Positions 11,006 to 34,613 of a stretch of 35,899 bases of DNA are shown here, piece by piece. The DNA is from Candidatus Omnitrophica bacterium CG22_combo_CG10-13_8_21_14_all_43_16 (GTDB lineage Bacteria > Omnitrophota > Gorgyraeia > Gorgyraeales > Gorgyraeaceae), in NCBI GenBank assembly GCA_002771475.1, contig PCTH01000031.1, positions 1 to 35,899 of the forward strand. The letters run 5' to 3'. The number at the start of each line of letters is the position of its first letter. Position 1 is the first letter of the stretch. A program made the position numbers and the translations under genes. Under the pieces are notes generated by a model, which was given only the letters and a program-made list of their open reading frames with translations, ran no database searches and was not told where the DNA came from.

Positions 11006-11219
11006 CTTTTCCGGCCCTGAGACAGCCGGTGCATATCTTTATTCTTTTTACAGTGCCTTTTTCTATAATCTTCGCAACCTGCAGATTCGGCATAAACCTT
11101 CTTCGGTTAACGCCCGTTATTTTTAAGCCTACCCCGCCTTTTGCTTTGGCCAGACCTCTTCGCGCAATAGTCCTTCCCGCAACAGGCCCTTTTCCGCATA
11201 TTTCGCAAAATTTCGACAT
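10992..11219 (-). CDS. rpmB: 50S ribosomal protein L28 (zinc-type)
   Basis: The protein has 75 residues and starts MSKFCEICGKGPVAG, with the L28 signature RRFMPNLQ near the middle. Two cysteine pairs, C5/C8 and C63/C66, make it the zinc-binding form of L28. It is the only minus-strand protein gene in the window. An AAAGGAG ribosome site lies six bases before the ATG, and a promoter lies just upstream. It converges on recJ and the two ends overlap by 14 bases. Confidence 0.97.
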   Translation of the reverse strand: MSKFCEICGKGPVAGRTIARRGLAKAKGGVGLKITGVNRRRFMPNLQVAKIIEKGTVKRIKICTGCLRAGKVKKA

Positions 11220-11307: not shown

Positions 11308-11671
11308 GTATTATTTGAATAGATAGATAACAGATGTTGCAATAGCCGGCCCTGGCAGGTTTTGAGAAAAGCTTCGGCGATTTGAGCGGGCAAGGTGCCC
11401 TGTCCAGACAGGCCGTTCGGCACTGAAACTGGTTTCGCCGTGCGCTACGGTTTGCGGCTCGTTTTTTATACTGAAGGCAGCCTTGACAGTATAAAAACCT
11501 CGCCCGCAATCCCTTGCGCACTTATATTTAATGTCCAGTGATGCCGAAACGTTTCTGATGTGCCTCAGGCCTGTCTGGACAGGGCGAGCGAAAATCGGCG
11601 CGGAGCGAAGTCCGCCACGCCGGGGCGGACGAGCATCTTTTCGAAAGCCTGCCAGGGCCGACAAAGGCAAT
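11308..11671 (-). repeat. Structured dispersed repeat, copy 1 (long form)
   Basis: This 364-base element fills most of the 487-base gap between rpmB and the radical SAM gene. Read on the minus strand it is homologous to 30257-30452. It shares a left arm of about 80 bases containing GCTCGTCCGCCCCGGCGTG and CGGACTTCGCTCCGCG, a right arm with GCCCGCTC and ATCGCCGA, and a 33-base AT-rich tail ending CAAATAATAC. Its ends pair (CCTGGCAGG with CCTGCCAGG), and an 18-base perfect inverted pair (11397-11414 with 11568-11585) encloses a copy-specific insert. Both strands are open over much of it, but codon-position changes against copy 2 do not look protein-coding. No transposase is present. It could be a mobile-element relic, a MITE-like element or a structured RNA. 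Confidence 0.85.
11415..11567. repeat. 153-base nested-hairpin insert inside repeat copy 1
   Basis: This segment is absent from the second copy, where the corresponding loop is five bases. It is itself largely self-complementary. TTTTTATACTG (11463-11473) pairs perfectly with CAGTATAAAAA (11487-11497), flanked by TTGCGG/CCGCAA and GTGCGC/GCGCAC pairs. GTTCGGCA and TGCCGAAAC near its ends also pair. It looks like a second palindromic unit nested in the apex of the first. Confidence 0.75.
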
Positions 11672-11706
11672 GAGCATTACTTACTATTGAAAGTATTGCA
11701 ACTTAT

Positions 11707-12630
11707 ATGAATAATAGGGTTAAAGAAGCTTATAAATTGATGGAAAAATGCCGTATTTGCCCCAGAAAATGCGGGGTAAACAGGCTTAAGGGCCAGGCAG
11801 GGTTTTGTAATGCCGGCTTATTGTCGATGATTTCAAGTTTTCACGCCCATTTCGGAGAAGAGCCGCCTATATCCGGCAGGAACGGCTCCGGCACAATATT
11901 TTTTACGCATTGCAGTCTCAGGTGCGTATTTTGCCAGAATCATCCCATAAGCCAGATCGGCCGGGGGAAAGAAGCGAGCGCAGAAGAGTTAGCCGGCATG
12001 ATGCTGAAACTGCAGGATGAAGGCTGCCACAATATAAATTTTGTAACGCCCACGCATTATATGCCTCAGATTTTAGAAGCAGTGTTTATAGCAAAAGAGA
12101 AGGGTTTAAAAGTGCCGCTGGTTTATAACTCGGGGGGATATGAATCAATAGAAGCTTTGGAGATTCTGGACGGGGTAATCGATATTTATATGCCTGATAT
12201 GAAGTATTCCGAAGATGAGCCTGCTAAAAAGTATTCAAACGCTTCTGATTATTTCGAGATTAATAAAGCTGCGGTAAAAGAGATGCATAGACAGGCAGGC
12301 GATTTAAAGATAGAAAAAGGCATTGCCGGAAAAGGGATTTTAATAAGACATCTTGTATTGCCTGAGAATTTAGCGGGCAGCCGGAAGATATTTGAATTTA
12401 TAGCGTCTGAATTATCGCCTCAGGCTTATGTGAATATAATGGCGCAGTATTATCCCTGCCATTTGGCAAATAGATTCCCGGAAATAGACCGCGGGATTAC
12501 AGCCAGGGAATATATGGAGGCAATAAAAGAGGCTGAAAAAGCAGGGCTTAAAAACGGATTCAGGCAGGTTATGAGCACTATAAAGCGCAAGCGCATACCG
12601 GAATGGACAGATAATTTAAAGGGCGCATGA
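11707..12630 (+). CDS. Radical SAM protein of the PflX family (COG1313 type)
   Basis: The protein has 307 residues. The radical SAM cluster motif is CSLRCVFC inside THCSLRCVFCQN, close to that of pyruvate formate-lyase activating enzymes. Ahead of it is a second cysteine set, CRICPRKCGVNRLKGQAGFC, characteristic of PflX-like proteins. Later blocks are NINFVTPTHYMPQI, VYNSGGYES and DIYMPDMKYS. Family members are thought to generate a glycyl or other substrate radical, but the target is unknown and no glycyl-radical enzyme is nearby, so I give no specific function. The start at 11707 has no clear Shine-Dalgarno sequence; an internal Met at residue 12 would also keep the cysteines. It overlaps recG by four bases. 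Confidence 0.88.
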   Translation: MNNRVKEAYKLMEKCRICPRKCGVNRLKGQAGFCNAGLLSMISSFHAHFGEEPPISGRNGSGTIFFTHCSLRCVFCQNHPISQIGRGKEASAEELAGMMLKLQDEGCHNINFVTPTHYMPQILEAVFIAKEKGLKVPLVYNSGGYESIEALEILDGVIDIYMPDMKYSEDEPAKKYSNASDYFEINKAAVKEMHRQAGDLKIEKGIAGKGILIRHLVLPENLAGSRKIFEFIASELSPQAYVNIMAQYYPCHLANRFPEIDRGITAREYMEAIKEAEKAGLKNGFRQVMSTIKRKRIPEWTDNLKGA

Positions 12631-29742: not shown

Positions 29743-30252
29743 ATGATACTTTCAAATATTTCAAAAAGAGAAAGATATGTTTTTAGCATAACCATAATAA
29801 TTATTGCCGCAGCGTTATTGTATAATTTCGTAATAGAAGCAGGATTTAAAAAGTGGCGGATTTTGAATAACGAAATAGCGGTTAAAAGGGCCAGGATGGC
29901 TAAAGGCATCAGATTGATCAAGAGACGGGATTCTATTATCCGGGAATACGACGAATATGTGAAATCCGCTAAAAATATATCCAATATTTTAAATGATATG
30001 GAACGCCAGGCAGATATGCTGGGCATAAAAACCAGTAATATAAAACCCGGCCAGGAAATTGAAAAAGATTTTTATAAAGAGCGCGCCATAGAACTTCAGA
30101 TAGAAGGGGAGATGGCGGATATTATTAAATTTGTTTCGCAGATAGCAAAACCGCCTATCCTGGCGATATTAAAGAAATTTGATTTCAGCCTCATCTCGCA
30201 AAACCCGTCAGTTTTCAAAGGCACGATAATCCTTTCCAAACTCATTATCTGA
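29743..30252 (+). CDS. gspM: GspM-like (PilO-like) assembly protein
   Basis: The protein has 169 residues with one N-terminal membrane helix (about 12-30, ending in LLYNFVIEAGF) and a helical then ferredoxin-like periplasmic domain. Position after gspL and this architecture support GspM; sequence conservation in this family is low, so PilO-like is equally fair. The cluster ends here: no gspD, gspC or gspN follows. The start has no Shine-Dalgarno sequence (TTTTAATATG). Confidence 0.72.
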   Translation: MILSNISKRERYVFSITIIIIAAALLYNFVIEAGFKKWRILNNEIAVKRARMAKGIRLIKRRDSIIREYDEYVKSAKNISNILNDMERQADMLGIKTSNIKPGQEIEKDFYKERAIELQIEGEMADIIKFVSQIAKPPILAILKKFDFSLISQNPSVFKGTIILSKLII

Positions 30253-30256
30253 TTCC

Positions 30257-30452
30257 ATTGCCAGCCCTGGCAGGCCTACGAAAAGACGCTCGTCCGCCCC
30301 GGCGTGACGGACTTCGCTCCGCGTCGATTCTCGCTCGTCCCGACACCTTTTCGGTGTCGGGACACCATGCCCGCTCGAATCGCCGAGGCTTTTCTTTAGG
30401 CCAGCCAGGGCTGGCTATCGCAATATTTGTAATCCAGATATTCAAATAATAC
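30257..30452 (+). repeat. Structured dispersed repeat, copy 2 (short form)
   Basis: This 196-base element sits between gspM and gpsA and is homologous to the reverse complement of 11308-11671. The outer stem is GCCAGCCCTGGC (30260-30271) with GCCAGGGCTGGC (30404-30415), a perfect 12 bp. Inside it is an 11-bp perfect hairpin (30337-30347 with 30353-30363) with a TTTTC loop. GTCCG/CGGAC makes a side hairpin in the left arm. A 63-codon open frame runs through it but shows no protein-like constraint against copy 1. Confidence 0.87.
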
Positions 30453-30523: not shown

Positions 30524-31513
30524 GTGAAAATATCGGTTTTAGGGGATGGCGGATGGGGCACGACGCTGGCCATTTTATTGAAAAATAAAGGGTTTGACGT
30601 ATCGCTCTGGAGCGCCTTTAAAGAAGATATAGAAGCTATAAAAAAGCACGGGGAGAATAAAAAATTCCTGCCCGGATTCAGGATCCAGAAGACTGTCCAG
30701 CTTACAGACGATATGTATGCCGCGTGCGATGGTTCCAACCTGATAGTTCTGGCTATACCGTCCAGGTTTTTGCGGGATGTAGTTACAAAAAATAAAAAGA
30801 TTCTCAGGGAGTTGCAGGCTGGTTTCGTGAGCGTCGCAAAGGGCATAGAAGTGAAAACCCTCAAGAGAATGAGCGAGGTGGCTAAAGAGGCCCTGGGAGA
30901 CAGGGATATAGCGGTATTGTCAGGCCCCAGCATAGCGCCTGAAGTGGCAAGGGGGATCCCTACGGCTGTGGTGGTGGCGTCAGAGGATGAGATTTTCGCG
31001 AGGAAGGTCAGCGATGTATTCAGGGCGGAGCATTTCAGGGTTTATACAAATAAAGATGTGGTAGGCGTGGAGCTTGGCGGTGCTTTTAAAAATGTAATAG
31101 CGATTGCCTCGGGTATTTCAGACGGCCTTGGGTTCGGGGCAAATACAAAAGCCGCGATACTTACCAGGGGCCTGGCAGAGATGACGCGCCTCGGCCTGGT
31201 GATGGGCGCCAACAAAGAGACCTTTCAGGGTTTGAGCGGGCTTGGGGATATGATTACCACGTGCATCAGCCCTGAAGGAAGAAATCACAAGTTCGGCGAG
31301 CAGATCGGAAAAGGCAATAAACCCGAACTTCTTCTCAGTAAAAGTGTCATGGAGATAGAAGGCGCATGGACTTCAGCCGCAGCAGTGGAACTCGGTAAAA
31401 AATATAATATAGAGCTGCCCATCACCCAGCAGGTGCATGCGGTTTTATTTGAGAATAAATCGCCCTTGGCGGCTGTCAATGAATTGATGACCCGGGAGCC
31501 GAAAGCCGAATAG
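30524..31513 (+). CDS. gpsA: Glycerol-3-phosphate dehydrogenase [NAD(P)+]
   Basis: The 329-residue enzyme reduces dihydroxyacetone phosphate to glycerol 3-phosphate for phospholipids. The start is GTG, because the ATG two bases upstream runs at once into a stop; AGGAGG lies four bases before it. The nucleotide-binding GDGGWGTTLA, LSGPSIAPEVA, ELGGAFKNVIAIASGI and LSGLGDMITTC blocks are diagnostic. It has its own promoter after the repeat and supplies the acceptor for the PlsX pathway. Confidence 0.96.
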   Translation: MKISVLGDGGWGTTLAILLKNKGFDVSLWSAFKEDIEAIKKHGENKKFLPGFRIQKTVQLTDDMYAACDGSNLIVLAIPSRFLRDVVTKNKKILRELQAGFVSVAKGIEVKTLKRMSEVAKEALGDRDIAVLSGPSIAPEVARGIPTAVVVASEDEIFARKVSDVFRAEHFRVYTNKDVVGVELGGAFKNVIAIASGISDGLGFGANTKAAILTRGLAEMTRLGLVMGANKETFQGLSGLGDMITTCISPEGRNHKFGEQIGKGNKPELLLSKSVMEIEGAWTSAAAVELGKKYNIELPITQQVHAVLFENKSPLAAVNELMTREPKAE

Positions 31514-34472: not shown

Positions 34473-34479
34473 ATTTGAC

Positions 34480-34592
34480 ATCTTCGGGAGAGGGTGAAAT
34501 TCCCCACCGGCGGTAAAGTCCGCGAGCTCTCATGAGAGGGCAGACCTGGCGCGATTCCAGGACCGATTGTTAAAGGCTAGATGATAGAAGAA
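34480..34592 (+). promoter_or_regulatory. FMN riboswitch (RFN element) aptamer
   Basis: The element carries the conserved RFN blocks: GAGGGTGAAATTCCCCACCG, GGCGGTAAAGTCCGCGAGC, GGCAGACCTGG, ATTCCAGGACCGA, and the closing AGATGATAGAAGA. Paired end P1 is TCTTC (34481-34485) with GAAGA (34587-34591). It senses flavin mononucleotide and here controls ribBA. Confidence 0.95.
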
Positions 34593-34613
34593 AGCTTATA
34601 GTTGTATTTTATT

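Follow-up and report, generated by a model that had tools for sequence, protein, structure and literature searches.

The DNA considered here (the window) is the whole stretch of 35,899 nucleotides of contig PCTH01000031.1 from Candidatus Omnitrophica bacterium CG22_combo_CG10-13_8_21_14_all_43_16. It contains two intergenic copies of a structured repeat, located on opposite strands. Copy 2 lies between an ORF at 29743-30252 and a gpsA-like ORF at 30524-31513, and copy 1 between an ORF at 11707-12630 and the start, near 11219 (-), of an rpmB-like gene, with a decayed target duplication outside; both gene names are our assumptions from reading the sequence. An FMN riboswitch is also present at 34476-34596 (+, 93.7 bits). 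The repeats are composites of T, an element with terminal inverted repeats, X, a module with several helices (P1 to P5), and B, a separate structured repeat, and their features are as follows.

30257-30452 (+): copy 2, X with a bare P5 hairpin and the right terminal inverted repeat of T; the left T end is missing
30260-30278 (+): 5' arm of P1 in copy 2, GCCAGCCCTGGCAGGCCTA
30282-30391 (+): X core of copy 2, 102.5 bits with covariance model R1, this copy being one of the 25 sequences from which the model was built
30292-30312 (+): P3 hairpin of copy 2, GTCCG..CGGAC with the conserved loop CCCC(A/G)GCG(T/A)G
30325-30330 (+): 5' arm of P4 in copy 2, CGATTC, partner of 30377-30382
30337-30363 (+): P5 hairpin of copy 2, GTCCCGACACC-TTTTC-GGTGTCGGGAC, 11 bp
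30377-30382 (+): 3' arm of P4 in copy 2, GAATCG
30397-30415 (+): 3' arm of P1 in copy 2, TAGGCCAGCCAGGGCTGGC
30429-30452 (+): right terminal inverted repeat of T in copy 2, the reverse complement of the GTATTATTTGAATA.. end
11308-11699 (-): copy 1, a complete T of 392 bp with both ends, holding X, which in turn holds B
11345-11356 (-): 3' arm of P1 in copy 1, GCCAGGGCCGGC
11411-11570 (-): B at the P5 tip of copy 1, coordinates by sequence reading
11541-11640 (-): X module of copy 1, 49.7 bits with R1, its P5 interrupted by B
11651-11662 (-): 5' arm of P1 in copy 1, GTCGGCCCTGGC

The original prediction described two structured repeats that align along their paired arms, and both were found in place: 86 nt could be aligned at 88% and 93 nt at 82%, and both copies folded more stably than shuffled sequences (z = -7.3 for copy 2 and -8.6 for copy 1). 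Its examples of co-varying stems fared differently. The change from GATTC/GAATC to GATTT/AAATC is a genuine compensatory change. In the outer stem, GCCAGCCCTGGC/GCCAGGGCTGGC in copy 2 and GTCGGCCCTGGC/GCCAGGGCCGGC in copy 1, the replacement of A-T by G-C is compensatory, whereas that of C-G by T-G yields only a wobble pair; the letters given for copy 1 had been quoted from the other strand. The central stem does differ between the copies as claimed, the reason being that P5 is a bare 11-bp hairpin in copy 2, while copy 1 carries a B of ~160 nt at the P5 tip. Thus, because the repeats are composite, a part of the difference between them is nested insertion.

The X core is approximately 110 nt long and comprises the three helices P3, P4, and P5, arranged in the order CGCTCG, hairpin P3, CTTCGCT, stem P4, CTCGCTCG, hairpin P5, GGACACCRTGCCCGC, and the second strand of P4. 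P2 (GAAAAG/CTTTTC in the source genus) and P1 lie outside the core. The consensus of the P3 loop in the core is CCCAGCGWG, the segment between P5 and the second strand of P4 reads GGACACC(A/G)TGCCCGC in the 25-module alignment, and each of the four junction strands in the window copy contains CGCTC. These unpaired junction words are near-invariant between families, while the stems vary up to a complete turnover of P4, as in GAAAATTTTTTC/GAAAAAATTTTC of G048 (L057) and GGAATCTTGCGC/GCGCAAGATTCC of L256. Since the 25 core modules were collected with patterns fixed in the junction words, the search itself accounts in part for the strict invariance of these words, but not for their presence in other families.

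The significance of the covariation, which is beyond the reach of two copies alone, was obtained from many. In the 25-sequence core alignment, the covariation score was 0.649 versus 0.182 (sd 0.016) after shuffling, a value reached in 0 of 500 shuffles, which ignore kinship among the sequences. In the same alignment, 88.0% of the cells were paired (62.3% in shuffled data), both sides had changed in 20 of 23 pairs, and a shift of the partner by 1-3 columns reduced the covariation to 0.26 or less. A set of 100 distinct modules gave 0.686 versus 0.180 (sd 0.008) in an alignment that was itself fitted to the structure. Arms also matched their own partners better than swapped ones, with P3 pairing of 92.7% versus 66.3% (sd 1.8) among 66 modules and a P1 arm score of 34.6 versus 17.5 (sd 0.85) among 38 elements. 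The additional copies hold the pairing through change and do not break it as often as they keep it, in line with the earlier proposal that structure is kept over sequence.

X was detected by the covariance model in 83 of 193 Omnitrophota genomes (43%), reaching at least 20 copies per genome, with at most 20 matches scored in each. By BLAST, the source genome (G000; 1.23 Mb in 92 contigs, ~91% complete) showed 49 matches to copy 2 in about 30 places, many of them at contig ends, and its copy number is given as these BLAST places. X was present in 10 of 11 congeners, and weaker BLAST matches occurred in other genera and families. A gapped-pattern scan of named genomes returned 46 stretches, about half of them from Candidatus Omnitrophota. 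Among the remaining stretches, the contigs L221 (Wolfebacteria), L218 (Paceibacterota), and L253 (unclassified) scored 42-56 bits with the covariance model, and many of the others resemble chance matches; the cases in CPR could be explained by binning errors. One exact pattern had 0 hits among the viral contigs of IMG/VR, and viral carriage was rejected on this result. An assembly or amplification artefact of palindromes was also rejected because X is conserved in 83 genomes of many families. X represents small mobile DNA repeats across the Omnitrophota, whose fold seems to be kept while the stem sequence varies.

Mobility was examined by comparing sites with and without an element. In G008, the closest congener, the site of copy 2 is empty and ATCTGATCCTCGGGAATC replaces the element. 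The site of copy 1 is filled in G000, G001, and G007 (in G007 by the B and T parts only) and lacks the element in the remaining congeners where it is readable. At this same intergenic spot, three congeners (L160, L161, L162) without X have a hairpin repeat, GTAGGGGACGGT..ACCGTCCCCTAC, and variants of it, which starts with GTAG, like REPs. Relatives also lack the element at further sites of the source genus and at three sites of a second family (in G178, three sites only were compared at both flanks). Remnants were observed as well: G003 retains just a P1 remnant at the L014 site and G109 a core-deleted one at the L337 site, and both look like internal deletion or excision. The insertions are thus real. 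T leaves a clear target duplication; no clear one was seen at the empty sites of X elements without T ends, for which terminal inverted repeats and insertion were observed. Insertion of X into a pre-existing hairpin, with P1 as the target stem, was considered and found unsupported at L030 and L005; as the empty relatives show no such hairpin there, P1 seems to come with the insertion.

T displays the features of a miniature inverted-repeat element (MITE). Its imperfect 24-bp terminal inverted repeats have the ends GTATTATTTGAATAGNTAGGTAAC and GTAATACTTTCAATGNNAGGTAAC, and it is flanked by 16-17 bp target duplications, of which several are perfect (e.g., ATAATGTTTAAATGTCT and AAATTCTTGAGATTGCT). 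Duplications of this size, unusually long for a bacterial element, were noted at L004, L042, L049, L056, L078, and L116. Among the matches in the genus, whose genomes are incomplete, no pair of terminal inverted repeats was spaced for a transposase gene, and an autonomous partner of T was not found. Many X copies in the source genus lie inside T. T elements without X also exist; they are ~86 bp long, and their centre is a palindrome that reads GCCAGCCCTGGC or the reverse complement of this. Such a palindrome would be a hairpin already in place for X to insert into, but these elements could also be deletion products.

Nesting continues within X. In the source genus, the P5 tip is often occupied by B (GTCTGAGGCGCATTAGAAA..GCCGAATGGCCCC), of which 58 distinct copies were found in the loci (e.g., L004, L021, and L019), and short hairpins of the CCCTTCGTC.. 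and CCCTCGAC.. types occur within X junctions. In G015, an opposite-strand variant of X (E) encloses a second X, the whole set lying between T ends. By eye, the stems of B also seem to covary (GTCCGC/GCGGAC, GCGCGC/GCGCGC), and its central hairpin is wholly replaced in some copies. A B-like sequence, GCCGTGTGCTGCGGCTTACGGC..GCCGTAACTCCTTGCACAC.., upstream of X in L328 (G178, family f3) suggests that B extends beyond the family of the window, and a structured-looking repeat, TTTCGCAGCGAATGTCGATTTTAGCCAATGGAGCTTGAG.., adjoins several X copies of f3 (L331, L332, L336, G178).

Based on these data, we consider it somewhat more probable than the alternatives combined (roughly 0.55) that X forms the conserved portion of a mobile repeat that is non-autonomous, that its folded strand is the substrate for mobility, and that other repeats nest in it. 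The family itself, its covariation, the insertions, the nesting, and the exchange or inversion of internal blocks were observed directly, whereas the role of the fold in mobility, its action as DNA, and the existence of a trans-acting enzyme are inferences. In the folded strand, P1/P2 would form the closing stem, P3 a hairpin, and P4-P5 a long arm; the junction words CGCTC, CCCAGCGWG, CTTCGCT, and CACCRTGCCCGC are conserved, and the stems would need only to pair. The folded strand, most likely single-stranded or extruded DNA, would probably be recognised by a putative trans-acting enzyme that copies or moves X. Palindromic repeats (B and the short C/D hairpins) insert into unpaired tips and junctions of X, and the frequent carriage of X in T, with its terminal inverted repeats and 16-17 bp duplications, generates the nested palindromes of the source genus. 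A wider version, in which a phylum-wide mobile class has a three-dimensional single-strand fold that is recognised by a putative enzyme and its members insert into each other's unpaired loops, is possible but doubtful.

The way in which the stems change bears on a different origin of the pairing. Stems are often exchanged in entire blocks and not one substitution at a time; near-identical elements in one genus have one of a few discrete versions of P3 or P5, indels are coordinated on both arms within one genus, and at one orthologous site two species have entirely different P5 sequences. At several orthologous sites, the interior lies in the reverse orientation between its flanks, namely in L268 versus L021 and, by flank reading, in L106 versus L082, L087, L068, and L102 and in L074 versus L044. 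Such inversions and block differences imply that recombination between copies or arms contributes. The two arms change jointly with few intermediates, as would be expected if arm-to-arm copying (template switching or inverted-arm recombination) in an ordinary MITE produced the pairing without selection, and templated repair of this kind could be a partial source of the perfect pairing. As the full explanation it is improbable: the junction words remain conserved and asymmetric from one family to another and in CPR contigs, next to stems that are wholly variable, for which random arm correction offers no reason, and the P1 arms covary though they are 100-300 nt apart. Asymmetric unpaired words common to several families, being unexplained by recombination, point to a functional fold. 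Where the original prediction left the choice between selection and recombination, probably both act.

Selection could also act on a transcript, X being a regulatory or catalytic structured RNA spread by a transposon. This is a serious rival, if an unlikely one. Conserved junction words with freely covarying stems, as in X, are typical of structured RNAs, and X is mostly located between tandem genes, where co-transcription is possible; BOX (PMC3049150) and bcr (PMC3446304) repeats are transcribed. However, the orientation of X to genes is not fixed (16 in the same and 33 in the opposite orientation relative to tandem genes, a mild bias), and inverted inserts are found at orthologous loci. A cis-regulatory element of fixed orientation was rejected for the same lack of a fixed orientation. 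G.T pairs are rare, with no clear excess over A.C in P3 of the MAFFT core alignment (4 versus 7), though P4 has 9 versus 4, and P5 has none; wobble pairs make up 89 of 1774 paired cells in the structure-fitted alignment of 100 modules. The few wobble pairs and the unfixed orientation lean, indirectly and not decisively, towards DNA rather than RNA as the folding molecule. Finally, an Rfam search at gathering and E-value thresholds found zero families resembling X, by which a known RNA family was excluded. This agrees with the earlier statement that no named family fits, as does the fact that no described transposon was found to fit; searches of open-access papers turned up no earlier description of X. 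X is apparently a fold-conserved, nested, and mobile repeat family without prior description.

As for a possible enzyme, GTAG/CGTC REPs are palindromes of 20-40 bp with an unpaired GTAG or CGTC at one end, and those of the GTAG class flank a Y1 tyrosine transposase gene (PMC3733652). Like REP/REPIN sequences with their RAYTs, X consists of dispersed extragenic hairpins beside a short conserved word, recalling tagged REPs, and Y1_Tnp genes are present in 12 of 12 genomes of the genus. That X is a large REP-like hairpin moved by Y1 (HUH) transposases is nevertheless very improbable, as 0 X matches were found near the 31 Y1_Tnp loci and two X-rich genomes that are at least 95% complete (G105 and G035) had no PF01797 match; mobilisation by a RAYT was rejected on these grounds. 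In addition, the size and architecture of X (a core of ~110 nt with three helices and the conserved word CGCTC) are unlike those of REPs and outside the GTAG/CGTC definition (PMC3733652).

The best-known small dispersed repeats of bacteria are defined by sequence and have been described from one species group. In X, a multi-helix fold is kept phylum-wide while the stems are turned over completely, so that selection on the fold could be tested by stem swaps. X is also located where many contigs of these metagenome-assembled genomes end, and through it a new transposase or nuclease that recognises structure may be found. Recognition of the attC sites of integrons depends on a folded single strand in which few bases are conserved, which offers an analogy for a possible mode of action of X and not a membership, since X is branched and occurs as dispersed single copies, with no cassette array seen. 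Short length, lack of coding capacity, and terminal inverted repeats (24 bp in T; the terminal stem GCGGGT../..ACCCGC of X in family f3) are shared with MITEs, and X behaves like a MITE in which a folded strand may be what is recognised. BOX and RUP of Streptococcus pneumoniae are small, dispersed, intergenic, MITE-like repeats that are modular, tightly folded, and sometimes inserted into each other (PMC3049150). In these respects BOX resembles X; it differs in that its description covers S. pneumoniae and S. mitis, related elements being present in S. suis, whereas X is phylum-wide with sequence-free stems. Similarly, bcr1-bcr18 of the Bacillus cereus group are interspersed MITE-like repeats, some with a conserved secondary structure (PMC3446304), and differ by description in belonging to one species group, whereas X is distributed over many families and shows whole-stem replacement and nesting.
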